The notes beneath the pieces were generated by a model. The model was not told where the DNA came from. It ran no database searches and saw only the letters and a program-made list of their open reading frames with translations. Both the position numbers and the translations under genes were made by a program. Below, in pieces: positions 6,015 to 50,450 of a stretch of 51,673 nucleotides of DNA (position 1 is its first letter; every line of letters starts with the position of its first letter). The stretch covers positions 1-51,673 of the IMG/VR virus record IMGVR_UViG_3300048834_001057; one strand, 5' to 3'. The stretch comes from a virus.

Positions 6015-6071
6015 TATCAGGTATCATGGGTATCATTTGCCTAAGGGTTTTGATACTTTGATACCTGATAC
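6014..6071. repeat. GTATCA iteron-like inverted cluster, possible origin
   Basis: The perfect 13-bp inverted pair GTATCAGGTATCA (6014-6026) / TGATACCTGATAC (6059-6071) encloses a further GTATCA (6030-6035) and TGATAC (6051-6056), six hexamers in all. There is no T-run, so it is a poor terminator. A second AT-rich palindrome (GGTAAAAATATTTACC, 6077-6092) follows. Repeated short sites next to a RepA-type helicase gene suggest an origin or a regulator-binding array. Confidence 0.55.
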
Positions 6072-6121
6072 CATCTGGTAAAAATATTTACCCTTCACCA
6101 AATTGCACTTTTTTACTTTTA

Positions 6122-6146
6122 TTTGACTACTTTTGACAAGTCAAAA
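6122..6146. promoter_or_regulatory. Operator for the XRE controller
   Basis: TTTTGAC-AA-GTCAAAA (6131-6146) is a perfect palindrome, preceded by another half-site TTTGAC (6122-6127). It lies 13 bp before the XRE start codon, as in controller (C-box) operators of restriction-modification systems. CTACTTTTGACAAG here (6127-6140) is identical to 106-119 in the attachment repeat. Confidence 0.6.
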
Positions 6147-6158
6147 TTAGTTGAATAG

Positions 6159-6443
6159 ATGTCCTTCGGTGAAACCATAAGAAAACAAAGAGAAAGTAAA
6201 AATTTGCTACTTCGTCAGGCTGCTGCCTTCTTAGAAGTTGACACAGCTTTTGTAAGTAAACTCGAAAGAGGGGAACGCAACGCAAGCCGTGAGCAAGTCG
6301 TTAAATTGGCAGAATTTCTACAAACTCCAGCCGAGCCACTCATAACAATTTGGCTTGCAGATAAAATTTCAGATACAATAAACAATAGCAAGGAGGGCGA
6401 AGATGCTTTAAAACTTGTACTTAAAACCTATAAGAAGAAATGA
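6159..6443 (+). CDS. XRE-family controller protein of the defence operon
   Basis: 94-aa helix-turn-helix protein: GETIRKQRESKNLLLRQAA, then FLEVDTAFVSKLERGERNAS, which is the typical XRE recognition helix and the usual glutamate/arginine signature. It is the size and type of a restriction-modification C protein. Its stop overlaps the start of the SNF2 gene by 4 bp (ATGA), so it is the first gene of the operon. It probably regulates transcription from the palindromic operator at 6122-6146. The family call is firm; the controller role is inferred. Confidence 0.9.
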   Translation: MSFGETIRKQRESKNLLLRQAAAFLEVDTAFVSKLERGERNASREQVVKLAEFLQTPAEPLITIWLADKISDTINNSKEGEDALKLVLKTYKKK

Positions 6444-9316
6444 GCATTACACCTTACCATGCTAAATATTTCGCATACGAACTTACCAAACGTAGTTCAT
6501 CAGACAGTATGCAAAAACTTGCTTCTACTTTAGTAGATGCACAAGTAGATTTAAACCCTCATCAAGTTGAAGCTGCATTATTTGCTTTTCGTTCCCCCTT
6601 GTCCAAAGGTGCTATTTTAGCCGATGAAGTTGGGTTAGGTAAAACAATTGAAGCTGCATTAGTAATATCTCAAAAGTGGGCAGAAAGAAAACGTAAAATA
6701 ATTATCATAACTCCTGCAAATCTTCGTAAACAGTGGTCACAGGAACTACAAGATAAATTCTTCCTTTCATCAATTATTCTTGAAGCAAAATCATTCAATG
6801 ATTGCGTTAAAAAAGGAAACTTAAACCCATTCGACCAGCCGGAAATAATCATTTGTTCATACCAGTTTGCAAGAACTAAAGAACCTTATATAAAATCAAT
6901 CGGTTGGGATTTAGCAGTGATTGATGAAGCCCACAGATTAAGAAATGTTTATAAGGCAGGTAACAAAATTGCCAAGTCAATTAAGGATGCACTGAATGAA
7001 GCTCCAAAAATACTTTTAACAGCAACCCCTTTACAAAATACCTTATTAGAGTTGTATGGTTTGGTGAGCATTATTGATGATTATTCTTTTGGCGATTTAA
7101 AAAGTTTTAAGACCCAATACAGCAGAGTAACAAGCACAGCAGATGCAGAAGCATTCACAGAGTTAAAAGAAAGACTAAAACCAATTTGTAAACGAACATT
7201 AAGACGACAAGTTTTAGAGTATATCCGTTATACAAACAGAATTGCATTGGTGGAAGAATTTTATCCTACTGATGAAGAACAGAAATTGTATGATATGGTT
7301 ACAGATTATCTGCAAGCAGAAAATCTGTATGCTTTACCTGCAAGCCAACGTAAACTGATGACTTTAATATTGAGAAGGCTTTTAGCCTCCTCTACATTTG
7401 CAATTTCAGGCACTCTGGAAGCATTAGGTTCAAAACTTAACGGTATAATTACCAAGAGCAACGAAACCAACACAGAAGAAATAATTGCCGATAATTTTGA
7501 AACCTTTGATGAATTAAAAGACGAGTGGGATGAAGATGAGGAAGAAGTAAAAGAGGAAAAGGTTTATACAAGTGAAGATTTAGAAAACATAAAATCCGAA
7601 ATACAATCATTAAAGGAATTTGAAACCTTAGCAAAGTCCATTACCAAAAATTCTAAAGGAGAAAAACTCTTTACAGCCCTTGAAAAGGGTTTTAAAGAAA
7701 TGGTAAGATTAGAAGCACCCCAAAAAGCAATCATATTTACAGAAAGCACAAGAACTCAATTATACCTCCGCAATATTTTAGAAGCCAGAGGCTATGCAGG
7801 TAAAGTGGTTTTGTTCAACGGTTCAAATACAGACCCTAAATCAAGAGAAATTTATTCAGCTTGGGCAGCTAAATACAAAAACACAGACAGAGCAACAGGT
7901 TCAAGAAGTGCTGATATGAGAGCTGCATTAGTTGACTATTTTAGAGAAGAAGCAACTATAATGATTGCCACCGAAGCAGCAGCAGAGGGTATCAATTTGC
8001 AGTTCTGTTCTATGATTATCAATTACGATATGCCTTGGAACCCCCAACGTATTGAACAAAGAATTGGTAGATGTCACCGCTATGGTCAAAAATATGATGT
8101 TGTAGTTATAAATTTCTTAAACAAAGCAAATGCAGCAGACCAAAGAGTTTATGAGTTGCTTCGTGATAAATTCCAATTATTCAATGGTGTTTTTGGTGCG
8201 AGTGATGAAGTATTAGGTAATATAGAAAACGGTGTTGATTTTGAAAAAAGAATAGCAGAAATATATCAAAATTGCAGAACCGTTGCAGAAATAAATCAGG
8301 CTTTCGATGTATTAAAAAGCGAACTAAAAGACAGTATAGAAGATGAATTTAAAAAGACCCGAAAAAACTTATTAGAAAACTTTGATGAAGAAGTACACGA
8401 AAAATTACGCATAAACCTACAAGAGAGTAAAGAGTATCTTTCAAAATACGAAACATGGCTTTGGGACATTACACAATATTTTTTAGCCACCAATGCTGAG
8501 TTTTCTGTTGATGAACATTCATTTCGTTTATTAAACAATCCATTCCCCGAAGTTAAAATACATCCTGGTCCTTATCGTATTGGTAAAAATATAGACGATG
8601 CTAATGTTTACCGAATTGGACATCCTTTGGCTCAAAAAATAATTGATACCTGCAAGGCTACTAAATTGGAAGAAATTGAGCTTGTTTTCGATTATACCAA
8701 TACAGTTAAAAACATTGCAGCCATTGAAGGTTTTGTTGGACAATCGGGTTATATGATGGGCAATGTATTAAGTATTACATCTTTTGAATTAGAAGAGTTT
8801 ATCCAATTGTGTGGTATCACCGATAATGGAGCTTTATTAGATAAGCACCAATGCGAAAGGTTCTTTTCAATTCCAGCTACCGTCAATAATTCAGCAATAG
8901 CAGTTCCATTAAGCGTTTCTCTAAAATTAGCAGAGCAAATTCGTACACATCGTTTAAGCACCTTAGATGAAATTGGACAACGCAATGCTGTTTATTTTGA
9001 AAACGAATTAGAAAAATTAGACCATTGGGGTGAAGACCGCAGAAACTCCTTAAAAGTAACCCTTAAAGATTTGGATTTTGAAATTAAGGAAGTAAAGAAG
9101 CAATCACGATTAGCACCCAATTTGCCTGATAAATTAAAACTCGAAAAACAACGTAAGAAGTTAGAAAACGAAAGAGATACTGCATGGAAAGAATATGATG
9201 GTGCAGCAAAAGAAATAGAACAAAACAAAGACAAGTTAATAGACCAGATTGAGCAAAGATTACAGCAAAATTTGAATGAAGAACCTTTGTTTTTAATTAA
9301 ATGGAAACTTATTTAA
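6440..9316 (+). CDS. SNF2/Swi2-family helicase-like ATPase of the defence operon
   Basis: 958-aa superfamily 2 translocase. Walker A DEVGLGKT at residues 62-69, DEAH at 162-165, motif III LLTATPLQN, and C-terminal lobe motifs FTESTRTQL, ATEAAAEGINLQ and RIEQRIGRCHRYGQ are all intact. An acidic insert (EEEVKEEK) separates the lobes. The last ~110 residues form a charged coiled coil ending in a hydrophobic LFLIKWKLI tail. SNF2 proteins of this length occur in bacterial defence loci, for example DrmD of class 1 DISARM, but no DISARM core gene is present here. It overlaps the gene before by 4 bp and the one after by 16 bp, so expression is coupled. Probable role: moving along or sensing phage DNA together with Mod/Res. 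Confidence 0.9.
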   Translation: MSITPYHAKYFAYELTKRSSSDSMQKLASTLVDAQVDLNPHQVEAALFAFRSPLSKGAILADEVGLGKTIEAALVISQKWAERKRKIIIITPANLRKQWSQELQDKFFLSSIILEAKSFNDCVKKGNLNPFDQPEIIICSYQFARTKEPYIKSIGWDLAVIDEAHRLRNVYKAGNKIAKSIKDALNEAPKILLTATPLQNTLLELYGLVSIIDDYSFGDLKSFKTQYSRVTSTADAEAFTELKERLKPICKRTLRRQVLEYIRYTNRIALVEEFYPTDEEQKLYDMVTDYLQAENLYALPASQRKLMTLILRRLLASSTFAISGTLEALGSKLNGIITKSNETNTEEIIADNFETFDELKDEWDEDEEEVKEEKVYTSEDLENIKSEIQSLKEFETLAKSITKNSKGEKLFTALEKGFKEMVRLEAPQKAIIFTESTRTQLYLRNILEARGYAGKVVLFNGSNTDPKSREIYSAWAAKYKNTDRATGSRSADMRAALVDYFREEATIMIATEAAAEGINLQFCSMIINYDMPWNPQRIEQRIGRCHRYGQKYDVVVINFLNKANAADQRVYELLRDKFQLFNGVFGASDEVLGNIENGVDFEKRIAEIYQNCRTVAEINQAFDVLKSELKDSIEDEFKKTRKNLLENFDEEVHEKLRINLQESKEYLSKYETWLWDITQYFLATNAEFSVDEHSFRLLNNPFPEVKIHPGPYRIGKNIDDANVYRIGHPLAQKIIDTCKATKLEEIELVFDYTNTVKNIAAIEGFVGQSGYMMGNVLSITSFELEEFIQLCGITDNGALLDKHQCERFFSIPATVNNSAIAVPLSVSLKLAEQIRTHRLSTLDEIGQRNAVYFENELEKLDHWGEDRRNSLKVTLKDLDFEIKEVKKQSRLAPNLPDKLKLEKQRKKLENERDTAWKEYDGAAKEIEQNKDKLIDQIEQRLQQNLNEEPLFLIKWKLI

Positions 9317-9522
9317 TCAACGATATGAGCAAGAGCAACGCAGAATTAGCTAAAATAATTGACGATAAATTGAAAGCGGCTGGCTTAATCAATGATACTG
9401 AAACTCAATTGGTGATTAAATTGGCAAAGGGTACTTTAAAAGATGTGGATTGGAAATTAGCATTTGAGGAAGTTTTAAATAAACCTGTTACAAAAACAAT
9501 TGATACAGATGAAGCTAAATAA
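9301..9522 (+). CDS. Small 73-aa defence-operon protein
   Basis: 73 aa from 9301, or 65 aa from the in-frame ATG at 9325 (MSKSNAELAKIIDDKLK). Predicted helical, with no recognised domain. It is squeezed between two large genes, overlapping the SNF2 end by 16 bp and the ATPase start by 14 bp, so its product is probably made in step with them. That argues it is a subunit or adaptor of the same complex rather than a chance frame. The biochemical role is unknown. Confidence 0.7.
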   Translation: METYLINDMSKSNAELAKIIDDKLKAAGLINDTETQLVIKLAKGTLKDVDWKLAFEEVLNKPVTKTIDTDEAK

Positions 9523-11839
9523 CCTCTACATATCCTCTTTTAGAGGTGCTACCAAGCCCGTAACAATTGACTTTGACCCTTCAAAGAAAATCACTATGAT
9601 TTTTGCTGAAAATGGTAATGGCAAATCAACTATTGCAGATGCTTTCATTTGCTTACTTACAGAGAATAGAGGCTCATTAGACGATAAATCTTCAATTGAT
9701 CCACAGTTTATTAAATCATTAGGTACAGGCACTGGAGAAACTAAAATAACACTAAGCACAGATATTGGAACTTATTCAGCATCATTGGCCGGTACAGCCA
9801 AAGATTTTACCAAAACACCATCAACTGGTTTACCACCATTGCGGTTTTTACGTAGAAGCCAAATCATCAACATAATGAATTTAAAACCTTCTGAAAGGTA
9901 TAATTCATTGAAGGACTATATTGATGTTTCAGGCATTTATGCAGCAGAGGAAGAGTTAAGAAAAACAAGCAGAGATGTTGATAATGAATTAGAAAATTCA
10001 GTTCGTGTACTTGCAAGTGCTAAAGATACTTTAGAACAAGCATGGATTAAAGAGGGCAAGCCACAAGGCGATATGTTATTGTGGGCAAAAGCACAAGCCG
10101 AAATGGATTTGAGTAAAGATAAAATTGCACTCAATACACTAAGATTATTAACGAATGAATGGAGGGCAATTGATAATAAGTACAAAGAAATATTAGGTTC
10201 AATAGGTGTAGTAAAGGCATCACAAACGGCATTTAACAATGCAACGGAGGCATTAAAGAAATTACAAGCTGAGAGCATTAATAACAATGCTTCGCTGTTT
10301 ACTTTATTACAACAAGCCAAAAACTATATTGCAGCAAAAGACCCTATTACAAATTGCCCTGTTTGTTCAAACGATATTGATAAAACCGAAGTGCTTACTT
10401 CTTTAAATAAGCAAATTACTTCAATGGATGCATTAGGCAAAGCAGCCAAGTTAGTAGAAGATACAAAAAAGGTAAACGATAAAAATATTGCAATTCAGAA
10501 CAAAGCAGTTGAAACATTTAGTGGGCTTTTGATTAAGTATAAAAATTCAATAGCTAAGTACAAAACAGATGTACCAGATATTGCACCTTTTGTTGATACA
10601 ATTGGCAATGATATTAGTGCTAACTATACTTGTTTTACTGCTAATATCGCACCATTAACTGCCTTGTTTGTTAGAATTGAAAATGCTGAAAAACTAAAGT
10701 CAAAAGCAATAGAGCAACACAACTTTATAAAGACACAATTTGATACAATTACCCTTCAACTCACAAAATCAGAAAAATTAGGCAAACTTTCCATTGCTAC
10801 TGCTAAAGCATTGGTTATAGTGGAGAAGGAACGCAAAGATTACTACGATAACGAATTACTATCTATATCGGGTGAAGTAGAACAGATGTATCAAAGAATA
10901 CACCCAAAAGAAGGCTTAGGAGGTATAAAACTATTTCTTAATCCAAAATTCAAAACATCTTTAGAATTACAAGCCAATTTTCATACAGAGGAAGGCATTA
11001 CACCACAATCTGTTTACAGCGAAAGCCATTTAGATACGTTGGGCATTTGCATATTTTTAGCATTGGCAAAAAAATATAGCACAGGCGACACTATCCTTGT
11101 TTTAGATGATGTGGTAATGTCAGTTGATGATAAACATTTAGACAGGTTTATTGATTTATTGCATGATGAAGAAAAACACTTTGGGCAAATAATTATTACC
11201 ACACATTACAGACCTTGGAGAGAAAGATACCGCAACAATAGAGCACCAGCAGGTAATGTTCAATTCATGGAACTTCGCAACTGGACAAAAGAAAACGGTA
11301 TTCGTGTTTTCAATAGCAAAATTATTTTAGCAGAGTTAAAGCAATTATTGGCAGATGAAAAAGATTTTCATAGAGAAAATATTGCAGGTACAGCAGGTAG
11401 AATGCTTGAAAATATTTTGGACTACATTACACTAAAATATTCATCACGTTTACCACGTAAGCCAAAAGCAGATTATCAACTTCACGAATTACTTACAGGC
11501 TTATCTAAAGAATTGCTAAAGGTTTTTAGAGTAGAACATTTCACAAAAGACGAAGATGGCAAATACTCTGTATTGTCTAATGATATTCCATTAGTGACTG
11601 TAATAGATAAATTGAAACAACTTAAAGCAGTTCGCAACCAAGTAGGAGCACATTTTAATTTTGATGGGCAGTTAGTAAGTGACGATGATGTAATTGAATT
11701 TGGAAATGCAACGGTTGAATTTGCCGAATTATTAATTTGTGCAGAAACAGGAGCATTACCCGACAAGGATAGTTCGGGTTCATATTGGGAAACAAAATCA
11801 GGTTCAATTAAACTTTATCCATTAGTTGACCCTAAATAA
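9509..11839 (+). CDS. Rad50/RloC-like ABC ATPase with zinc hook and possible HEPN domain
   Basis: 776 aa from ATG 9509 (a TTG at 9500 is also in frame). Walker A ENGNGKS (K39) is near the N-terminus. Long coiled-coil arms flank a zinc hook CPVC at 283-286. A signature-like SESHLDTLG and Walker B ILVLDD (D533-D534) close the ATPase. About 200 further residues end in a helical domain containing RNQVGAH (R709, H715), which matches the R-x4-6-H pattern of HEPN ribonucleases. RloC, a Rad50-like protein linked to R-M loci, has the same order: ABC ATPase, zinc hook, C-terminal HEPN anticodon nuclease. The architecture is seen; RNase activity is inferred. Alternatively it is a plain DNA-end sensor of the RecF/SMC type. 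It lies 15 bp before mod. Confidence 0.75.
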   Translation: MKLNNLYISSFRGATKPVTIDFDPSKKITMIFAENGNGKSTIADAFICLLTENRGSLDDKSSIDPQFIKSLGTGTGETKITLSTDIGTYSASLAGTAKDFTKTPSTGLPPLRFLRRSQIINIMNLKPSERYNSLKDYIDVSGIYAAEEELRKTSRDVDNELENSVRVLASAKDTLEQAWIKEGKPQGDMLLWAKAQAEMDLSKDKIALNTLRLLTNEWRAIDNKYKEILGSIGVVKASQTAFNNATEALKKLQAESINNNASLFTLLQQAKNYIAAKDPITNCPVCSNDIDKTEVLTSLNKQITSMDALGKAAKLVEDTKKVNDKNIAIQNKAVETFSGLLIKYKNSIAKYKTDVPDIAPFVDTIGNDISANYTCFTANIAPLTALFVRIENAEKLKSKAIEQHNFIKTQFDTITLQLTKSEKLGKLSIATAKALVIVEKERKDYYDNELLSISGEVEQMYQRIHPKEGLGGIKLFLNPKFKTSLELQANFHTEEGITPQSVYSESHLDTLGICIFLALAKKYSTGDTILVLDDVVMSVDDKHLDRFIDLLHDEEKHFGQIIITTHYRPWRERYRNNRAPAGNVQFMELRNWTKENGIRVFNSKIILAELKQLLADEKDFHRENIAGTAGRMLENILDYITLKYSSRLPRKPKADYQLHELLTGLSKELLKVFRVEHFTKDEDGKYSVLSNDIPLVTVIDKLKQLKAVRNQVGAHFNFDGQLVSDDDVIEFGNATVEFAELLICAETGALPDKDSSGSYWETKSGSIKLYPLVDPK

Positions 11840-11854
11840 AAATAGTAAAAGAAA

Positions 11855-13774
11855 ATGGCAGAAATACAAAAACAAGAACTTACCTCAATGAATATTACAG
11901 AGGATCAACTGCAAAAGTTAAAACAACTTTTCCCCGAGGCATTTACCGAAGGGCTAAAAGTAGATTGGGAAAAACTCAAACTTACATTAGGTAAGGCAAT
12001 AGATACAGGCAAAGAACGCTATGGAATGAATTGGCCTGGAAAAGCCGATTGTTTTAAAACCATCCAGCAGCCAAGCATAGCAACACTTATTCCTGCAAGA
12101 GAAGAAAGTATAGATTTTGACACCACTCAAAATTTATTTATTGAAGGCGATAATTTGGAAGTATTGAAGCTATTGCAAAAAAGCTATTTAGGTAAAATTA
12201 AGTTCATGTATTTCGACCCGCCATATAACACAGGTAAAGATTTTGTTTATCCTGATAATTATTCAGAAAGTCTTGATACCTATTTAGAATATACGGGGCA
12301 AGTAGATGCAGATGGTAAAAAGTTCGGTACTAATACGGATACTGATGGTAGGTATCATAGTAAGTGGATGAATATGATGTACCCACGTTTGTTTCTAGCA
12401 AAAAATCTATTGAAGGAGGATGGAGCTATCTTTATTTCTATTGATGATAACGAAATTCATAATTTACGTTTATTATGTAATGAAATATTTGGTGAAGAAA
12501 ACTTTGTTTCTCAGGCTGGTTGGCAAAAAGTATATAGCCCAAAAAATCAAGCGAAATTATTGTCTAATGATTACGAATATGTTTTAATCTACAGTAAAAA
12601 TAACGCAGAGTTCAAGGTTGGTTTATTGCCACGTACAGAAGAAATGAATAATAGATATTCTAATCCAGATAATGACCCAAGGGGGCCTTGGAAGTCAGGT
12701 GATTTGGTGGCTGCTGGCGAAAGAAAGGGAGGGTATTATATTGTACGTAATCCTCACAATGGCAAAGAATATAATGTACCGAGTGGCAAGCATTGGGCTT
12801 TTTCAGAGGAAACAATGAAACAAATGCTTTCTGAAAATAGAATATCATTTGGCAAAAACAATGATAGTTTTCCAAGTTCAAAACAATTTTTAAGTGAAGT
12901 CAAGCAAGGCAGAGTTCCATCTTCATTATTATCGTATAAAGAGTATGGCCATACGGATGAAGCTAAAAAGGATTTTATAAAATTATTTGGTGATGATGGT
13001 CGCACTATTTTCGAGACTTTAAAGCCAGTTAAGCTTATTAAGAAACTAAGTTTAATTGCAAATATTGGCAAGGACGATATAGTGTTAGACATATTTGCAG
13101 GTTCGGGAACAACTGCTCAAGCTGTGTATGAATTAAACTTTGAGGACGATGGCAATAGGAAATTTATTTGTGTTCAGTTACCCGAGAAAAATGATGAAAA
13201 AAGTGAAGCTTTTAAGGCAGGTTATCAATTAGTTTCTGATATAACAAAAGCGAGAATAAGAAAAGCATCTGCTAGCCTAAAAGAACAAATTGAAACTAAA
13301 AATAAAGTTGCTTCTCAAACTATTTTTGGGGCATCAAATAAAAAACAAATTGACCTTGGAGTGAAAGTTGTAAAACTTTCAAAATCCAATTTCAAAATTT
13401 GGGATGCTACATTAGAAAAAGAGCCTGAATTAATTCAAGCAAAATTATTTGAACACATACAGCATATTTCACCCGAAGCAGAGCAAGAAGCAATACTCTA
13501 CGAGTTATTGCTAAAATCAGGTTTTGAACTTACCACACCAATAGAAAAATTAACCCTTGCAGGGTTAACTGTTTTCAGTATTGCCGAAGGGCAATTGCTT
13601 ATTTGTTTAGAAAAGGAATTAACACACGATTGTCTTAAAGCAATGGCAGAGTTACAGCCTACCAGAGTTATTTGCTTAGACGAAGCATTTAAAGGTGAAA
13701 ATGCAGATGCACTAAAAACCAATGCAGTTCAAATAATGAAAAGCAAAGGAGTTGTAAACTTTAGAACGGTATAG
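11855..13774 (+). CDS. mod: Type III DNA methyltransferase (Mod), adenine-N6
   Basis: 639-aa beta-class N6-adenine methyltransferase. The N-terminal region leads to NLFIEGDNLEVLKLLQ and catalytic motif IV DPPY at 121-124. The target-recognition region lies between about 190 and 390, and the SAM-binding motif DIFAGSGT follows at 412-419. The order DPPY before FxGxG and the length are those of type III Mod proteins. It pairs with the Res gene 4 bp downstream to make the methylating and restricting complex. The frame is intact with no phase-variable tract seen in the gene. The site recognised cannot be read from sequence. Confidence 0.95.
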   Translation: MAEIQKQELTSMNITEDQLQKLKQLFPEAFTEGLKVDWEKLKLTLGKAIDTGKERYGMNWPGKADCFKTIQQPSIATLIPAREESIDFDTTQNLFIEGDNLEVLKLLQKSYLGKIKFMYFDPPYNTGKDFVYPDNYSESLDTYLEYTGQVDADGKKFGTNTDTDGRYHSKWMNMMYPRLFLAKNLLKEDGAIFISIDDNEIHNLRLLCNEIFGEENFVSQAGWQKVYSPKNQAKLLSNDYEYVLIYSKNNAEFKVGLLPRTEEMNNRYSNPDNDPRGPWKSGDLVAAGERKGGYYIVRNPHNGKEYNVPSGKHWAFSEETMKQMLSENRISFGKNNDSFPSSKQFLSEVKQGRVPSSLLSYKEYGHTDEAKKDFIKLFGDDGRTIFETLKPVKLIKKLSLIANIGKDDIVLDIFAGSGTTAQAVYELNFEDDGNRKFICVQLPEKNDEKSEAFKAGYQLVSDITKARIRKASASLKEQIETKNKVASQTIFGASNKKQIDLGVKVVKLSKSNFKIWDATLEKEPELIQAKLFEHIQHISPEAEQEAILYELLLKSGFELTTPIEKLTLAGLTVFSIAEGQLLICLEKELTHDCLKAMAELQPTRVICLDEAFKGENADALKTNAVQIMKSKGVVNFRTV

Positions 13775-13778
13775 TATT

Positions 13779-16676
13779 ATGAAATTAAAATTCGACAGTA
13801 CACAGCCGTTTCAGTTGCAAGCAGTTCACAGCTTTGTAAATTTATTTGATGGGCAGCCATTAAATCAATCCGATTATACAGTAGAAATAAATGCAAGTAA
13901 TCAGCAAGGGCAAAGTAGCATCTTTCAATCAGAACTTGGTATTGGTAACAACCTTACCATTAATGAAGAAACATTGCTAAAAAACCTACATGCTATACAA
14001 GAGGAAAATGATTTAGATGCCACACCCGAACAGGAATTTAAAAAGAACGGTTTCAACTTTTCAGTTGAAATGGAAACAGGCACAGGCAAAACTTATGTGT
14101 ATCTTCGCACCATTTTTGAACTCAGCCAAAAATTTGGCTTCAAAAAATTCATTATAGTTGTTCCAAGTGTAGCCATCAGAGAAGGTACAGTAAAGAATAT
14201 AGAAATAACAGCAGTCCACTTTAAGGCATTATACAACAATATTGAATTTGAATATTTTGTGTACGACAGTAAAAAAGCAAACCGCCTAAGGCAGTTCGCC
14301 ACCAGTAACCAGTTGCAAATAATGATAATCAATATTGATGCTTTTAACAAAGACACCAATATTTTCAACCAAGAACGTAATCAATTAAATGGCTTTAGTC
14401 CAAAAGAATTTATTAATTCAGTTAGACCATTTGTATTAATAGACGAACCCCAAAGTGTTGATAATACAAGTAAAGCACAAGAAGCCATAAAATCATTAAA
14501 CCCAATTTGCATATTCCGTTTTTCTGCTACGCATAAAAACCCTTACAATCTCATTTATAAACTAGACCCTATTAGGGCTTATGAGCTTCGTTTGGTTAAG
14601 CAAATAGTAGTAGCCTCAGTAGTAGGTGCAAATGCTCAAAACGATGCTTATGTGAAGCTATTAGAGGTAAACAACAAGGCAGGTATAAAAGCTAAAATCC
14701 GTATTCAAGTACAAGGCATTGGTGCAGTAAACGAAACAGAAATGTGGGTAAAGCAAAATGCTGATTTATTTGCACTATCCAATGAAAGAGCAGCCTATCA
14801 AAATGGTTTTGAAGTATTAGACATAAGTGCAGAACCAGGCAATGAGTATATTGATTTTACTTCGGGCAGATTATATTTAGGACAAGAAAGAGGCGGTATT
14901 ACAGATGATTTGATTGAAATACAAATTAAGAACACCATCAAAAAACACTTAGATAAAGAACTGCAATTAAAGGGAAGAGGTATAAAAGTATTGAGTTTGT
15001 TTTTTGTAGATAAAGTTGCCAATTACAGAACCTATGATGAAGAAGGGAAACCAATACCAGGTAAGTTTGCAGAGTTGTTTGAAAGGCATTATAATGAATT
15101 GATAGAATTACCCCAATACAAAGAGTTAGCTATTTTTCAAGTAGATAAGATCCATGATGGATATTTCTCAGCCGACAAAAAAGGAGTTTATAAAGACACC
15201 AACGGAAGCACCCAAGCGGATGATGATACCTATGCTAAAATCATGCGAAACAAAGAACAGTTACTTTCAATGGACGAGCCATTGAAGTTCATCTTCTCCC
15301 ACTCTGCACTTCGTGAAGGTTGGGATAATCCGAATGTGTTTCAAATATGTGTTTTAAGAGAAGTAGGCAGTACCAAAGAAAGAAGGCAAACATTGGGTAG
15401 AGGCTTGCGTTTACCAGTAAACAGCGAAGGAGAAAGAGTAAAAGACGATAGTATAAATAAACTTACTGTAATAGCAAGAGAAAGCTATGCTGATTTTGCA
15501 AATGGCTTACAAAAGGAATATGAAGAAGATTGTGGCGTTACCTTTGGTAAAGTGCCAAAAATAGCCTTTGCAAAAATTACAGCAACAGTTGGTGAAGAAG
15601 AAGTTGCCTTAGGCAGAACATCAAGTGAAAATATTTGGGCAGAATTAGTAAGCAAAGGTTTTATTGATAACAACGGTAAAATACAAAATACATTCAATCC
15701 TTCTAAAGAAGGCTTTTCATTAGGTTTATCAGAAAAGTTTGCAGAAAAAGAAAGTGATATTATTACGGTACTTCAATCCTATCAGTTAGAAAGACACATC
15801 AAAAAAGACGAAGAACCCAAGCGTTTAAAAATCAATAAACAGATTTTCCTTGACCCTGAATTTGAAAACCTTTGGAATAAAATTAAGCACAGAACAACCT
15901 ACCAAGTAGATTATTCCACAGATGTTTTAATTGCTAACGCAACTAAAACTATAAAGGAAATGGAAAAAATTGAACCAGTAAAAGTTGCTTACCGTGAAGA
16001 TATTATTGGAGTAGAAAAGAAAGGTATTACAACCACCAATACAAAAGCCAACGAAATAAAATTAGAATACTCAGGCAATCTACCAGATATTTTAGCATAC
16101 CTACAAAAGGAAACAGAATTAACACGTTCCACATTGGTTAAAATCCTTTCTGAAAGCAATCGTATTGTCGAGTTTGCTATCAATCCTCAAAAGTTTATGG
16201 ATGCAGTAGCAGCTATTATAAACAGAGAATTACACAGGCTTATGATTGATGGTATAAAGTATGAGAAACTAACAACAGGGCAAACAGAATGGAGTATGCA
16301 GCTATTCAGAGAAGAAGAATTGAAAGACTACTTTGAGCAATGTTTAGTAGTTAAAAATTCAGTATTTGATAGAGTAATTTATGATAGTGAAATAGAAAGA
16401 AAGTTTGCAGAAGATTTAGACAAAAGAGAAGATATAAAGCTATTTGTAAAACTACCATCATTCTTTAAAGTAGAAACCCCAATAGGCACATACAACCCCG
16501 ATTGGGCAATAGTAAAGCACAATGATGATACAATCTATTTAGTGAGAGAAACCAAAAGCACCAAAAACTTTGAGAAGCTAAGAAATTCAGAAGCAGACAA
16601 AATAAAATGTGGCAGAAAACACTTTGCAGCCATCGGTGCAAACTTTGATGTAGTAACTAATTCTTTGGAGGTATAA
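13779..16676 (+). CDS. res: Type III restriction endonuclease (Res)
   Basis: 965-aa superfamily 2 translocase-nuclease. Walker A ETGTGKT at 99-105, motif II DEPQ at 222-225, RFSATHK motif III, and motif VI region REVGSTKERRQTLGRGLRLP are present. The C-terminal PD-(D/E)xK nuclease shows D908 (NPDW) and E924-T-K926 (RETKS). All key residues are intact, so cleavage is expected when the partner Mod finds head-to-head unmethylated sites. It starts 4 bp after mod and closes the packed run that begins at the XRE gene. Confidence 0.95.
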   Translation: MKLKFDSTQPFQLQAVHSFVNLFDGQPLNQSDYTVEINASNQQGQSSIFQSELGIGNNLTINEETLLKNLHAIQEENDLDATPEQEFKKNGFNFSVEMETGTGKTYVYLRTIFELSQKFGFKKFIIVVPSVAIREGTVKNIEITAVHFKALYNNIEFEYFVYDSKKANRLRQFATSNQLQIMIINIDAFNKDTNIFNQERNQLNGFSPKEFINSVRPFVLIDEPQSVDNTSKAQEAIKSLNPICIFRFSATHKNPYNLIYKLDPIRAYELRLVKQIVVASVVGANAQNDAYVKLLEVNNKAGIKAKIRIQVQGIGAVNETEMWVKQNADLFALSNERAAYQNGFEVLDISAEPGNEYIDFTSGRLYLGQERGGITDDLIEIQIKNTIKKHLDKELQLKGRGIKVLSLFFVDKVANYRTYDEEGKPIPGKFAELFERHYNELIELPQYKELAIFQVDKIHDGYFSADKKGVYKDTNGSTQADDDTYAKIMRNKEQLLSMDEPLKFIFSHSALREGWDNPNVFQICVLREVGSTKERRQTLGRGLRLPVNSEGERVKDDSINKLTVIARESYADFANGLQKEYEEDCGVTFGKVPKIAFAKITATVGEEEVALGRTSSENIWAELVSKGFIDNNGKIQNTFNPSKEGFSLGLSEKFAEKESDIITVLQSYQLERHIKKDEEPKRLKINKQIFLDPEFENLWNKIKHRTTYQVDYSTDVLIANATKTIKEMEKIEPVKVAYREDIIGVEKKGITTTNTKANEIKLEYSGNLPDILAYLQKETELTRSTLVKILSESNRIVEFAINPQKFMDAVAAIINRELHRLMIDGIKYEKLTTGQTEWSMQLFREEELKDYFEQCLVVKNSVFDRVIYDSEIERKFAEDLDKREDIKLFVKLPSFFKVETPIGTYNPDWAIVKHNDDTIYLVRETKSTKNFEKLRNSEADKIKCGRKHFAAIGANFDVVTNSLEV

Positions 16677-27606: not shown

Positions 27607-27720
27607 TATATTTGTACTCTCGGTTAGGGACGGAACTTCGAGAGTCCTATAAGCCTCGACCCCAGCAAAGGCAAAACGAATGTTTTTTAAATGTTTGTTT
27701 TGCCTTTGTCTTTTAACCGT
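27607..27720 (+). ncRNA. Candidate phage small RNA antisense to the MuF 3' end
   Basis: In the gap between gpG and MuF (both minus strand) the plus strand has a -7 box TATATTTG (27607-27614), then a stem ACTCTCG (27616-27622)/CGAGAGT (27639-27645), and a 12-bp terminator-type stem CAAAGGCAAAAC (27666-27677)/GTTTTGCCTTTG (27697-27708) with TCTTTTAACCGTTTTTT after it. The U-rich tail exists only on the plus strand, so a ~100-nt plus-strand RNA is favoured. Its 3' end overlaps the last MuF codons in antisense. Confidence 0.5.
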
Positions 27721-28895
27721 TTTTTAATTAATTGTAAATCATATTGTCTAATACTATTATTAGGGAGAATGGTTGTAATAAAGTGAACATTCTTATTTCT
27801 GTTTTTTGTGATAGATTCAATCAACACCCGATACATATCCCTATAGCTTTTGGGTTCTTTTGTTAAACGTAGAATTAATTCAGATGCGCGTTGTTTGCTC
27901 GCCTCTTTTAAACCATTTTGGAGTGCGGATTTGCCGTTCTCCGTTGTTACAACCTTAACATCGACAAAATGATTTAATAGTATATTGAAAGCATCGGGAT
28001 TTGATAAGCCGTCGTTTATTATTGGTAACATTCTATACTTCATGCCATCTTCAGCTAAAACTGTTAAAGCAGATTTATTTTTAGCAAACTCCACTTTGTT
28101 TTGTTTACCATTTGTAAACACTTCAAGTTGCCCAGAGCCTTGAATAGGCACTTTTGTAAAGATTATGCCTTCATATCTTTTGTTAAATTTATTGTCATAA
28201 AATAGTTGTTTAGTGGTTATTAGCACAGCATTAGGCGTATTGGCTATGTAGCTGTTGGTATCGGTAAAAATCTTGCCGGTTATGGCGGGGTTGTTCCTAA
28301 AGGCTTCCGGAATATCGGGCACACTAAAATTCTGGGTCGGTACGCCACGCCGAAGCTTTTTAACCGTAGTACGGCAATTAAAGTGGTTTGGTGGGAAAAA
28401 CACCAACAGCATCGGGTCGTCAACCCGAACGATAACGTTGTGCAAGGGCGCGCAGATATCGCTTGTATGGTCGTCCTTAACCACCACAAACTGTATAAAC
28501 GGGAAAATGTGCTTGTCGCGCTGTATTTCGCCCCACAGGCGCGCCATTTGCGTGCTGGCAACAATGGTGTTGTACTCTGTTTTTAAATGGCGTACCGATG
28601 TGCCCACAACGGCTTGGGCTTCGCGTTTAAAGTCGTTCCAGGTGCGCAACGCCCCGGTGCCGTCCAGCAGTAAATTATTAAGCCTTATTAAGTCGTTGTA
28701 ATTTTTTGCCGATGAAAAGTTCCAGACGTTCTGTTTCAGCTTTTCGCGAATCACATAATCGGGCGTGTCCCATTCCACGGCAAACACATCATCAATGGCA
28801 TTGCTAAAGGCAACTGCCTGTTTTTCAACAATGCTTTCAACTATCTTGTTTTTGGGGATGTTCTTGTTTTTGTAAACATCCTTTAGGCTGTTCAA
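27687..28895 (-). CDS. MuF-type head morphogenesis protein (frame opens at 29040)
   Basis: 402 aa if begun at the TTG 28895, but the same frame stays open upstream to the portal gene and its codons (RYEELDWQALEQEYHPC, INLSEGNPPDWADLLADDW) look genuinely coding. No ATG, GTG or TTG precedes 28895 in that frame back into the portal gene. The MuF core is DDHTSDICAPLHN to FFPPNHFNCRTTVKKL, with the conserved Cys/His pattern of SPP1 gp7/Mu gp30. The C-terminal ~200 residues are an extra domain of unknown type (EFAKNKSALTVLAEDGMKYR). Most economical reading: made as a portal-MuF fusion through a -1 frameshift at 29030-29036. Confidence 0.8.
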   Translation of the reverse strand: MNSLKDVYKNKNIPKNKIVESIVEKQAVAFSNAIDDVFAVEWDTPDYVIREKLKQNVWNFSSAKNYNDLIRLNNLLLDGTGALRTWNDFKREAQAVVGTSVRHLKTEYNTIVASTQMARLWGEIQRDKHIFPFIQFVVVKDDHTSDICAPLHNVIVRVDDPMLLVFFPPNHFNCRTTVKKLRRGVPTQNFSVPDIPEAFRNNPAITGKIFTDTNSYIANTPNAVLITTKQLFYDNKFNKRYEGIIFTKVPIQGSGQLEVFTNGKQNKVEFAKNKSALTVLAEDGMKYRMLPIINDGLSNPDAFNILLNHFVDVKVVTTENGKSALQNGLKEASKQRASELILRLTKEPKSYRDMYRVLIESITKNRNKNVHFITTILPNNSIRQYDLQLIKKRLKDKGKTNI

Positions 28896-28996
28896 CCAAT
28901 CATCGGCAAGCAGGTCTGCCCAATCGGGCGGGTTGCCTTCGCTTAAATTGATGGCGCAACACGGGTGGTACTCCTGTTCTAAAGCTTGCCAATCAA

Positions 28997-29036
28997 GCTC
29001 CTCATAGCGGTTTAATTCTATTGAGGAGCGTTTAAA
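28997..29036 (-). promoter_or_regulatory. Putative -1 programmed frameshift signal, portal to MuF
   Basis: On the minus strand the portal frame reads ..TTT TTA AAC GCT CCT CAA TAG. T-TTA-AAC is the canonical X-XXY-YYZ heptamer UUUAAAC in the correct phase (29036 to 29030). It is followed at once by an 8-bp hairpin, GCTCCTCA (29029-29022) / TGAGGAGC (29004-28997), with the portal stop in its 17-nt loop. The -1 frame continues uninterrupted into MuF. The run of nine A/T (29034-29042) also permits transcriptional slippage or an assembly error. Confidence 0.6.
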
Positions 29037-30286
29037 AAAAAATCCTTGAACCTGTTGAATAACGAGAGCTCTTTGGCGCTTACCTTTTCGGGGTCTTTTT
29101 TCTTTTTGCCCTTGGGTTCTTCGCCCTGGTCGCCTTCCTCTTTTTTGGCATTGGGTGGCAGCGGTTCTGTGGGGTCTTGCACCTTGCCCTTGCCTTTGGG
29201 CAAATTAAAGGTTTCAAAAAAGTAAGCTTCATCTACGCCGCTGTTTGTAAGGCTGTTTACCTTTTCGGCAATGGTAAGCTGTTTTTCCTTGGTTAGTTTT
29301 TCGCCCCGTTCGGCAAACACAAAGTTACCGCCCTTTACGGGGTAGCCCCGTTTTTCCAAGCGTGGTAGCAGCTCGGTGTTCAACAGGCGCTGTATGTACC
29401 GCCTATCGGCTTGGTTCAGGTCGTCCTCGGTCTCGCCATGCACGTAGGCTTGGGCATAACTGCCGCCTTCTTTGGTGGTCATGGTCTGGCTGTTTATGCC
29501 AATAAGTATCTGTTCGTCGCACCATTTTAAAAAGGTATCGTGTATGGTTACGTTTCCACTGGCACTTTCGCCCAGGGTTTTCACATCGCCGTTTTTGCTC
29601 ATGGTTATGCTGCCCCCAGAACCGCGGTTCTTAAAGGCCTCTTCCATTTCAATGCGCCCGTTTTCATCATCGGGGTCGTACAGCCCCACCATTTGGGGGA
29701 TGCCGTATATTTCGCAATATTGCGCATAATCGGCACCGCCATTTCGTTTGAATATCACAAAGGGCGCTGTTTTGTTGAACAGGCCTAAATCGGTATCCTT
29801 GCCCAAGTTAATAATCCAATCGTTATCTACATAACTCCAGCCATCATCATCAAAACGGTTTTTAAGGATGGTCTTGGTTTCGGTGTTCAAGTGCTGCCTT
29901 GGGATGTTGAAGGGCTTGAACTTGCCATCAACCCAATTGAGCTCGATAACCGTTTTGCCGTAAAACTTGGTTTTCATAAACTCGATAACCAGTTCTTCAA
30001 ACTCGGGGGTATCGATAAACTCCTTCATCGCTTCCACTTCCTTTTTATCCTTTTGGAAAAGGATCTCGCTGTTGGTAATGGCGCGTATGCGTTTATCTAC
30101 CGCATCGGAAAGTACCAGATCGTTAAGCAGGTTATCAATCAAATCGTAGTACGCCGCCCTACGCCCACGGTAGGCGGTGTTCATCAATGTTTGCCAATTG
30201 TCAATACCAACGGCGCTGGCACGCGGTGGCGTAAGCACTAATACGTTGCTTATGTTGATTGCTTTTTTGGGTTCTTGTTTTGCCAT
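29018..30286 (-). CDS. Portal protein (Mu gp29-like, DUF935)
   Basis: 422 aa. VKTLGESASGNVTIHDTFLK, KTKFYGKTVIELNW, GIPQMVGLYDP and GSYAQAYVHGETEDD are typical of the Mu gp29/DUF935 portal family, which forms the 12-mer DNA gate at the capsid vertex. Length is a little below Mu gp29, and the C-terminus is a lysine/glutamate-rich tail (KKEEGDQGEEPKGKKKKDPE) ending LFNRFKDFFLNAPQ. The start is the ATG at 30286, 3 bp after the gp36-like stop. The last codons contain the frameshift site. Confidence 0.85.
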   Translation of the reverse strand: MAKQEPKKAINISNVLVLTPPRASAVGIDNWQTLMNTAYRGRRAAYYDLIDNLLNDLVLSDAVDKRIRAITNSEILFQKDKKEVEAMKEFIDTPEFEELVIEFMKTKFYGKTVIELNWVDGKFKPFNIPRQHLNTETKTILKNRFDDDGWSYVDNDWIINLGKDTDLGLFNKTAPFVIFKRNGGADYAQYCEIYGIPQMVGLYDPDDENGRIEMEEAFKNRGSGGSITMSKNGDVKTLGESASGNVTIHDTFLKWCDEQILIGINSQTMTTKEGGSYAQAYVHGETEDDLNQADRRYIQRLLNTELLPRLEKRGYPVKGGNFVFAERGEKLTKEKQLTIAEKVNSLTNSGVDEAYFFETFNLPKGKGKVQDPTEPLPPNAKKEEGDQGEEPKGKKKKDPEKVSAKELSLFNRFKDFFLNAPQ

Positions 30287-48351: not shown

Positions 48352-48454
48352 ACTTCTCAAGGTAATCTTAAATTTAGTAGCAAAGCCACCGCGTTGGAGG
48401 ACCAAAAGTCTTCTATGCGGTGGCTTTGCTGTTTTAAAAATTACCTTGAGAAGT
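48352..48454. ncRNA. 103-nt three-helix structured element
   Basis: ACTTCTCAAGGTAAT (48352-48366)/ATTACCTTGAGAAGT (48440-48454), AGCAAAGCCACCGC (48379-48392)/GCGGTGGCTTTGCT (48417-48430) and GAGGAC (48397-48402)/GTCTTC are three collinear helices. The two outer ones are perfect over 15 and 14 bp. It sits between lysis genes and the methylase genes. It may be a structured RNA, a bidirectional transcription barrier or a DNA hairpin such as a packaging or excision site. Confidence 0.6.
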
Positions 48455-48465
48455 GCAAATATATA

Positions 48466-48511
48466 GTAAACAATCAAATCAATCAATCAAAAAACGAACA
48501 ATCAATCAATC
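48466..48511. repeat. AATC-rich short tandem repeat before dam
   Basis: CAATCAAATCAATCAATCAA and, after AAAACGAA, CAATCAATCAATCC: imperfect tetranucleotide runs in the leader immediately 5' of the methylase ATG at 48513. Such runs can change length by slippage. Being upstream of the ATG they could alter expression, not the frame. Confidence 0.55.
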
Positions 48512-48512
48512 C

Positions 48513-49337
48513 ATGAAAAAAATCAATTACACCCAGTCGCCCCTGCCGTTTATGGGGCAAAAGCGCAAGTTTTTAAAAGCGTTTAAAGAAGCTTTAAATG
48601 CTTATCCTAAAGATGCCGTTTATGTAGACCTATTTGGTGGCAGCGGCCTTTTGGCGCACACCACCAAGCAGCACTACCCGATGGCCCGGGTTATTTACAA
48701 CGACTACGACAACTATCGTGCCCGCATAAAGGCCATACCCCAAACCAATCAACTTATAGGGCAAATACGCCACCTGTTGCAAGATTGCGCCAAGGACAAG
48801 CGTATTGTTGGCCACCACCGCGAAAGCGTTTTAAAACTGATAAAACAGCATGAGGCCACTTTTGGTTTTGTTGATTACATTACCATGTCGTCATCGCTGT
48901 TGTTTAGCATGAATTACGCTATAAGTTATGAGGAACTTGAAAAAAACACCCTTTACAATTGCGTAAGGTTGAGCGATTACAATGCAGAAGGCTATTTGGA
49001 TGGTCTGGAGATAGTACAAGAAGATTACCGGGTGCTATTTGATGCCTACAAAGGTTTGGATAACGTGGTTTTCTTGATAGACCCACCGTATTTGCAAACA
49101 ACTTCAGCTACCTATAAAAATTATTGGAAACTGGCAGATTACTTAAACGTGCTTACCGTTTTGGATGGGCACAGGTACTTTTATTTCACTTCAAATAAAT
49201 CATCCATCATAGAGCTTTGCGAGTGGGTTGGCACCCAAACCCTGTGCACAAACCCCTTTGCCGGGGCGCAAAAACTGGAAATCAATACCCAGATGAACCA
49301 CAACTCGTCGTACACCGATATTATGTTGTTTAAATAG
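48513..49337 (+). CDS. Dam-like N6-adenine DNA methyltransferase
   Basis: 274 aa from ATG 48513 (the frame from 48453 is the tetranucleotide leader). The D12-class order is seen: PFMGQKRKFLKAF at the N-terminus, DLFGGSGLLAH (D39 to H49) for SAM binding and LIDPPYLQT (D190-P-P-Y) for catalysis. No cognate nuclease nearby, so it is an orphan methylase, probably protecting phage DNA from host restriction or regulating phage promoters. Adjacent to a C5 methylase. Confidence 0.85.
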   Translation: MKKINYTQSPLPFMGQKRKFLKAFKEALNAYPKDAVYVDLFGGSGLLAHTTKQHYPMARVIYNDYDNYRARIKAIPQTNQLIGQIRHLLQDCAKDKRIVGHHRESVLKLIKQHEATFGFVDYITMSSSLLFSMNYAISYEELEKNTLYNCVRLSDYNAEGYLDGLEIVQEDYRVLFDAYKGLDNVVFLIDPPYLQTTSATYKNYWKLADYLNVLTVLDGHRYFYFTSNKSSIIELCEWVGTQTLCTNPFAGAQKLEINTQMNHNSSYTDIMLFK

Positions 49338-49345
49338 TTTGCGAA

Positions 49346-49462
49346 ATGAAGCAAAGAAAAAAACAACAGGCATTTGTGAATAGGGAACTGGACATAAAAA
49401 AAATACGCACCGATTATGATAAAATTAGAATTAGACTGGAAGCTGGCCACGGCATACAGTAA
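49346..49462 (+). CDS. 38-aa leader ORF overlapping dcm
   Basis: 38 codons (MKQRKKQQAFVNRELDIKKI and on) starting 6 bp after dam and overlapping the first 47 bp of the C5 methylase gene in another frame. Strongly basic. It may be a real small protein or only a translational bridge between the two methylase genes. Evidence is limited to position and start codon. Confidence 0.3.
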   Translation: MKQRKKQQAFVNRELDIKKIRTDYDKIRIRLEAGHGIQ

Positions 49463-50450
49463 GCCCCATGGGCTAAAAGTGTTCGGCACGTTTGTTTGTG
49501 GCGGTGGCAGTACCATGGGCTATAAACTGGCAGGCTTCGAGCATTTGGGCGGCGTTGAGATAGATAAACGGCTGGAAAGACTGTACAGGGAAAACCACAG
49601 CCCCAAGCACTTTTATTTAGAAGATATTAGGCAATTTAACCAGCGTGAAGATTTGCCCGCGGAACTTTACGATTTGGATATTTTGGACGGTTCGCCACCA
49701 TGCACCACCTTTTCCATGTGCGGCAAACGTGAAGCCACATGGGGCAAAACAAAAGTGTTTAAAGAAGGCCAAACAGAACAAACGCTTGACGATCTGGTGT
49801 TTGTTTACTGCGATACCATTGAAAAATTGCGCCCCAAGGTGGCCCTGTTGGAAAACGTTCCTGGCATCGTAGCGGGTAGGGCAAAAGGCTACGCCATTGG
49901 CATTTATGAAAGACTGGAAAAGTTGGGATACCATGTGCAGGTGTTCCAGTTGAACGGTGCCACCATGGGCGTACCGCAAGCCCGTGAACGGGTGTTCTTT
50001 ATTGCCCGAAGAAAGGATTTGAACTATAAACCTTTGGAGCTTTCGTTTAACGAGCCGCCCATAACCTTTGGTAAGGTGGTCGATAAAGGCAGTACCACGC
50101 ATAAACCGCTATGGCCTTCTATTGTAGTGCGTTGGCCATACCTAGAACGCGGCGACCAGAACCTAAAGTTTGCCGATGCCAAGTACCGCAATAAAACGAC
50201 CTACAACGCTTTTTTTAGCACATCGGTGTTGTACGACGATGTGGTGGCCAATACCTTGACAAGCAACGGCACAACGGTGTATTATGACGAAAAGCGCAAC
50301 TTAAACGACACGGAGTATAGGCGTATAAGCAGCTTTCCGGCCGATTACAACTTTTGTGGCATGGACGTTCGCTACGTGTGCGGGATGAGCGTACCGCCGT
50401 TGATGATAGCCCAAATAGCGGAACAAATGGAGTCGCAATGGTTTAAATGA
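49416..50450 (+). CDS. C5-cytosine DNA methyltransferase
   Basis: 344 aa. Motif I FVCGGGSTMGYKLAGFEHLG, catalytic motif IV GSPPCTTFS with C96, motif VI LLENVPGI, motif VIII GVPQARERVFFIARR, then the recognition region and motifs IX-X ending RRISSFPADYNF. All catalytic residues are present. No partner endonuclease, so it is an orphan phage methylase like its neighbour. Last gene of the prophage before its terminator and border repeats. Confidence 0.9.
   Translation: MIKLELDWKLATAYSKPHGLKVFGTFVCGGGSTMGYKLAGFEHLGGVEIDKRLERLYRENHSPKHFYLEDIRQFNQREDLPAELYDLDILDGSPPCTTFSMCGKREATWGKTKVFKEGQTEQTLDDLVFVYCDTIEKLRPKVALLENVPGIVAGRAKGYAIGIYERLEKLGYHVQVFQLNGATMGVPQARERVFFIARRKDLNYKPLELSFNEPPITFGKVVDKGSTTHKPLWPSIVVRWPYLERGDQNLKFADAKYRNKTTYNAFFSTSVLYDDVVANTLTSNGTTVYYDEKRNLNDTEYRRISSFPADYNFCGMDVRYVCGMSVPPLMIAQIAEQMESQWFK

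Follow-up and report, generated by a model that had tools for sequence, protein, structure and literature searches.

How does this phage express its MuF protein, when the MuF reading frame opens inside the end of the portal gene and has no start codon there? We examined the minus strand of the window, by which we mean the whole 51,673-nucleotide stretch analysed (positions 1 to 51,673 of IMG/VR record IMGVR_UViG_3300048834_001057), together with the portal genes of related phages. Taken together, the sequence features described below argue that the portal end probably encodes a programmed -1 ribosomal frameshift giving a mixed set of portal and portal-MuF proteins, a reading to which we assign a probability of roughly 0.88.

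The portal-MuF junction

The features of the junction are collected in Table 1. The portal product scores 225 bits against the Mu-type portal profile PF06074, above its curated cut-off of 23.9, and the -1 product scores 43.2 bits against the MuF profile PF04233, also above its curated cut-off (29.6). On the minus strand the portal gene ends in GAT TTT TTT TTA AAC GCT CCT CAA TAG (29044-29018), with the stop codon TAG at 29020-29018. The initial annotation had pointed to a UUUAAAC heptamer in portal phase, to a perfect 8-bp hairpin enclosing the portal stop and to an uninterrupted -1 frame that becomes MuF and lacks a start before 28895, and all three are confirmed by our analysis. The stem of the hairpin is capped by a TAG/CTA extension and the portal stop lies in its loop. 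Since the T run is nine nucleotides long, there are also two in-phase heptamers beyond UUUAAAC, namely T_TTT_TTT and, as the third in-phase heptamer of the portal frame, T_TTT_TTA (29039-29033). Thus, the in-phase X_XXY_YYZ motif needed for programmed -1 frameshifting is present here as T_TTT_TTT, and in the relatives as T_TTT_TTY.

Table 1. Positions of the junction features in the window.
Feature	Coordinates	Strand	Details
Portal gene (0 frame, Mu-type)	29018..30286	-	ORF of 422 aa plus stop; PF06074 E 1.7e-66
Slippery heptamer U_UUU_UUU	29036..29042	-	portal phase (GAT TTT TTT); T_TTT_TTY at the same place and in phase in relatives
UUUAAAC (T_TTA_AAC) heptamer	29030..29036	-	in phase; not conserved; directly abuts the hairpin
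Spacer, heptamer to hairpin	29030..29035	-	6 nt, TTAAAC
Hairpin, 8-bp perfect stem	28997..29029	-	GCTCCTCA (29029-29022) with TGAGGAGC (29004-28997); fold -14.5 kcal/mol
MuF part (-1 frame)	27687..29030	-	447 aa plus stop; PF04233 E 7.4e-11; N-terminus conserved
First conventional start of MuF frame, TTG	28893..28895	-	no ATG, GTG or TTG earlier; position not conserved
MuF domain match	28362..28634	-	residues 133-223 of the -1 product; PF04233
CdiA_C-like C-terminal region	27768..27974	-	residues 353-421 of the -1 product; Pfam CdiA_C E 0.0033, below cut-off

The C-terminus of the -1 product scores 18 bits against the CdiA_C profile (cut-off 26.6). A structure model of this product (pLDDT 86.6) has a fold match to the CdiA-CT structure 4g6v with an E value of 1.4e-4, so that the modelled end of MuF resembles a CdiA-CT toxin, with a putative toxin or nuclease role.

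Elsewhere in the window, positions 3960-16676 have the look of a defence island, with type III restriction-modification genes (DNA methylase, RE_endonuc/ResIII), an SNF2 helicase and an SMC-like ATPase. Two further DNA methylase genes, one of the D12 adenine class and one of the C5 cytosine class, occupy the right end (48453-50450).

Conservation of the slip signal and of the start-less MuF frame

Viral contigs, species-representative genomes and phage records were searched for related portals, which gave about 100; named sources are almost without exception Bacteroidota. A scan of the viral contigs with the Elizabethkingia portal alone gave no matches. The related junctions occur in two polarities. 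In class A, to which the phage studied belongs, the 0 frame encodes the portal and the -1 frame encodes portal-MuF. In class B, portal and MuF are already fused in the 0 frame, as a single ORF of about 820-880 aa, and the -1 frame stops after 15-36 codons. The nearest relatives (L010, Riemerella, Elizabethkingia, Soonwooa and the Elizabethkingia phage TCUEAP3) have similar portal ends, usually with a T6C run: GAT TTT TTC NNN NNN GCT CCT CGA TAG. Other stems at the same spacing, including GCCCCG/CGGGGC, GGACAG/CTGTCC and GCCCCC/GGGGGC, are found in Hankyphage p00 (L009), in rumen and Chitinophagales sequences and in further lineages.

For statistical comparison we used 55 representatives (32 of class A and 23 of class B), consisting of 53 taken at 85% portal identity and a further two whose MuF modules are exchanged. 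Note that only junctions carrying the heptamer were picked, and its occurrence in 55 of 55 is due to selection; the stem played no part in the choice. When a stem is defined as six strict Watson-Crick pairs with a loop of 3-30 that start exactly 6 nt past the heptamer, 51 of the 55 representatives have one. Within these portal genes, the control rate is 0.9% over 19,514 positions matched for phase and 0.7% over those that are GC-rich, and none of 200 shuffles gave more than 4 of 55. The representatives share ancestry and are not independent, although the portal tree nonetheless spans many deep lineages. This spacing falls in the 5-9 nt given for 3' stimulatory structures of -1 sites (PMC5009743). 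The 5' arms of the stem comprise 13 different sequences, each with a perfect partner, and covariation is observed as changes on both sides at pairs 2, 3, 5 and 6. The codon that precedes the slip heptamer is one of seven, all ending in T, and FF dipeptides elsewhere in the same genes are encoded as NNT TTT TTY in only 1 of 46 cases. On these sequence comparisons we judge that the combination of heptamer, spacer and stem is beyond chance and that the conserved slip site is U_UUU_UUY, which corresponds to the U_UUU_UUU heptamer in the phage.

The comparison therefore strongly supports the view put forward in the initial annotation that a -1 shift, aided by a 3' hairpin, fuses the portal to a MuF that has no start of its own, and it moves the place of the shift. 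Specifically, an alignment of homologous loci had been suggested as a check, and in it the hairpin and the missing MuF start are conserved and the UUUAAAC heptamer is not. That heptamer, originally named as the slip site, occurs in this phage only and leaves no spacer before the hairpin, the conserved motif being U_UUU_UUN, which ends six bases short of the hairpin; UUUAAAC may still add to slippage in this phage. Nor is the locus a single case, since the signal spans Mu-type phages of Bacteroidota, for example Hankyphage p00 and an Elizabethkingia phage, as well as P. gingivalis phages in the reverse polarity, with an A9 analogue in RcapMu and other alphaproteobacterial Mu-like phages.

The MuF frame is conserved directly after the heptamer in the -1 frame (RSSIEL..YEELDW...PDWAD), and its substitutions are distributed 1719/1132/2359 over codon positions 1, 2 and 3, a codon-like pattern. 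Of the downstream products tested, 48 of 49 match PF04233, and class A phages have no shared MuF start codon, as expected of a conserved overlapping -1 ORF that lacks another route of expression. In L010 and L047 the first ATG, GTG or TTG of the frame is at residue 163 and 171, respectively, which is within the MuF domain, so a whole MuF cannot arise there by ordinary initiation. Hankyphage has an ATG at residue 12, which makes separate MuF initiation possible in that phage. The C-termini of the relatives' MuF products vary (CdiA_C-like in 18, PBECR2 in 10, PBECR3 in 5 and glutamine deamidase in 2), in line with MuF polymorphic toxins (PMC5576092, PMC5512222).

The deposited MuF starts of TCUEAP3 (L005), RcapMu (L114) and RcWaterboi (L207) are internal, about 95-275 nt past the portal stop, and these annotations probably miss the N-terminal part of the protein. 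The annotated MuF N-termini in this group are wrong or doubtful, which bears on work on MuF toxins.

A few relatives depart from the common pattern. The heptamer is present in L013, where the usual stem is absent at +6, and in L064, which has no stem at +6. L050 and L069 have a fused ORF without an in-phase T6 heptamer, and in L057, a MAG, the T6 run is out of phase. Four further loci with a fused portal-MuF ORF and no T6 (L056, L097, L098 and L099) have an in-phase A_AAA_AAA near the junction, with a -1 stop within a few codons, and possibly represent the same frameshift device again. Saprospiraceae-type portals (L048, L049, L051, L055 and L197-L200) also lack T6 and carry A_AAA_AAG, A_AAA_AAA or G_GGA_AAG, followed by six bases ending in the portal stop and a GCCGTAG/CTACGGC stem, with the -1 frame open for more than 400 codons.

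In alphaproteobacterial Mu-like phages (RcapMu, L117-L175 and L183) the end of the portal carries an A9 run. In RcapMu and many of its relatives the 0 frame stops 1-8 codons past this run and the -1 frame is that of MuF; others keep A9 in a single ORF of about 915-970 aa, where the -1 frame stops 2-10 codons on; and still other alphaproteobacterial Mu-like phages have ordinary overlapping start codons, as in Mu and MP42. No obvious 3' hairpin was seen at the A9 sites. Virion proteomics of the roseophages vB_ThpS-P1 and vB_PeaS-P1 was considered as direct evidence and dropped, as their portal and MuF genes are separate and overlapping and are uninformative here.

Two polarities and apparent exchange of the MuF module

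Class B comprises P. gingivalis phages and many Bacteroidales, Prevotella, Parabacteroides and Cyclobacteriaceae prophages, and its junction carries the class A signal (NNT TTT TTC, 6 nt, stem). Judged from sequence, both classes would give the same two proteins, with the shift yielding the long one in class A and the short one in class B. If the plain portal is the dominant product in class B, this would demand efficient shifting.

On a portal tree built with the junction left out, polarity must have switched at least three times on branches with good support. Specifically, the portals of L062 (class A) and L063 (class B) are 93% identical and those of L061 (class A) and L070 (class B) are 95% identical, yet in each pair the polarity is opposite, apparently because the MuF module has been exchanged: within these pairs the MuF modules are only about 26% identical. 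The heptamer, spacer and stem are retained in both of the swapped forms. The simplest reading of these sequences is that exchange of the MuF module by recombination near the portal C-terminus flipped the polarity. Such near-identical portals with opposite polarity amount to a natural test of whether both products are needed.

For a class B fusion, the AlphaFold model is of low overall confidence (pLDDT 71), and its one informative part is a disordered linker at residues 364-431, itself modelled with low confidence, in which the slip-site FF lies. We lean slightly towards a broader view in which dual coding of portal and portal-MuF is old and general in Mu-type heads, producing mixed rings with a few covalent MuF-effector arms. 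As part of this proposal, MuF-effector modules would be exchangeable because the slip signal sits in a disordered linker, which lets modules swap despite the reversal of polarity.

Proposed mechanism, alternatives and known systems

From the heptamer, the spacer, the covarying stem, the start-less MuF frame and the polarity swaps, all read directly from the sequence, we infer the following course of events. The majority of ribosomes presumably terminate and release the 422-aa portal. The hairpin, positioned at the mRNA entry channel, would hold a fraction of ribosomes on U_UUU_UUU, where two Phe-tRNAs would slip together by -1 (UUU UUY to UUU UUU), and reading on in the -1 frame would produce a portal-MuF fusion of about 870 aa, presumably as the minor product. 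A slip at U_UUU_UUU would give the junction ...KDFFFKRSSIELNR, and a slip at UUUAAAC would instead give ...KDFFLNRSSIELNR. As a point against this, U_UUU_UUU shifted far less readily than A_AAA_AAG when placed in E. coli constructs (PMC5009743); its behaviour in Bacteroidota may differ. Portal and fusion would then co-assemble in one ring and enter the virion, which would place a limited number of MuF modules covalently at the portal within the head and carry the nuclease-like tail of MuF to the same location. Where the polarity is reversed, portal and MuF already share one gene, and the shift would yield the plain portal. By analogy with SPP1 gp7, the likely purpose is to equip the portal ring with MuF modules in limited number, at a ratio that may differ between classes A and B. 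If correct, this would explain how MuF number is limited on a ring of identical portal subunits, and suggests a loading route whereby MuF-borne effectors enter heads as covalent parts of the portal.

A different origin of the fusion would be slippage of RNA polymerase on the T9 run, such that a minority of mRNAs join the two frames and the ribosome does not slip. Runs of nine A or T do slip in bacteria (PMC5009743), this phage has such a run, and the A9 sites of the alphaproteobacterial relatives, which keep the long homopolymer and have no obvious hairpin, make polymerase slippage possible in that group. However, the T run is exactly six long in 49 of the 55 representatives and longer in only 6, the hairpin follows on the 3' side at a constant distance of 6 nt and is untranscribed while the polymerase is on the run, and the G_GGA_AAG of Saprospiraceae-type phages is no homopolymer. 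The run length and the fixed hairpin make transcript slippage, which the initial annotation had raised as a caveat, improbable for the family; the caveat stands in part for this phage, whose T9 leaves room for some slippage of this kind.

It is very unlikely that MuF is instead translated apart from the portal, from an internal or a non-standard start codon or by ribosomes that re-initiate past the portal stop, with no fusion formed. Mu, MP42, lotta8-1 and others do have MuF as its own gene with its own start, and annotators have set internal starts in TCUEAP3 and RcapMu, but the absence of a conserved start, most evident in L010 and L047, argues against separate translation, which also leaves unexplained the conservation of heptamer and stem and the single ORF of class B. 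The other caveat raised for this locus was an assembly indel. With such an indel, or equally with a sequencing error or gene decay, portal and MuF would truly be one in-frame gene. A nine-base homopolymer is a plausible place for such an error and in-frame portal-MuF fusions do exist among the relatives. Contig L003, which has 3 mismatches in 4,107 nt relative to the phage, carries the identical T9 run, however, and the same break occurs at the same place in dozens of genomes, isolate and phage genomes included, with different run lengths (mostly T6C), a conserved hairpin and a -1 frame conserved in a codon-like manner, so that this explanation is barely credible.

We found no description of a portal-MuF frameshift in the open-access full texts searched, and the accessible part of the main recoding review does not mention portals. 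One close precedent is RcapMu, whose annotators recorded a short portal with a 'possible +1 frameshift' and a MuF lacking any good start. In its sequence, A_AAA_AAA lies one codon ahead of the stop and MuF is in the -1 frame; it differs from the phage studied in its A9 run, in the lack of a clear hairpin and in the direction of the shift as annotated. No follow-up of this remark as a conserved feature was found in the literature. Microbacterium cluster EA and EB phages likewise have portal and MuF in a single polypeptide, but these are by their description simple gene fusions, with no frameshift signal reported (PMC7302621).

As regards the MuF protein itself, SPP1 gp7 is located at the portal inside the head in 1-2 copies per capsid (PMC5576092) and is present inside the procapsid (PMC6316719). 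A few copies of MuF at the portal is also what we predict for the portal-MuF fusion; gp7, however, has its own gene and binds the gp6 portal non-covalently, whereas a covalent fusion is predicted here. MuF polymorphic toxins of temperate phages share the variable C-terminal toxin or nuclease domains, but MuF has been treated as a separate portal-adjacent gene in that work and a frameshift fusion is unmentioned (PMC5576092, PMC5512222).

With respect to established frameshifts, both dnaX and the lambda tail chaperone offer parallels (PMC5009743). The gamma and tau forms of dnaX are short and long products of a -1 shift, and which form needs the shift differs by species; dnaX is, however, a cellular gene with A_AAA_AAG and a 5' Shine-Dalgarno stimulator, whereas portal/MuF has U_UUU_UUY and encodes a phage head protein. 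Lambda gpG/gpGT, of a type conserved across tailed phages, also arises by a -1 shift near the end of a virion-assembly gene, giving a short and an extended product at a set ratio. The signal described here sits between portal and MuF rather than in the chaperone genes before the tape measure gene, would generate a covalent portal fusion, is reversed in polarity in some relatives, and has products that are expected in the virion, which gpG and gpGT are not. If our reading holds, it would be another widely conserved frameshift in tailed-phage structural genes, beside that of the tail chaperone.
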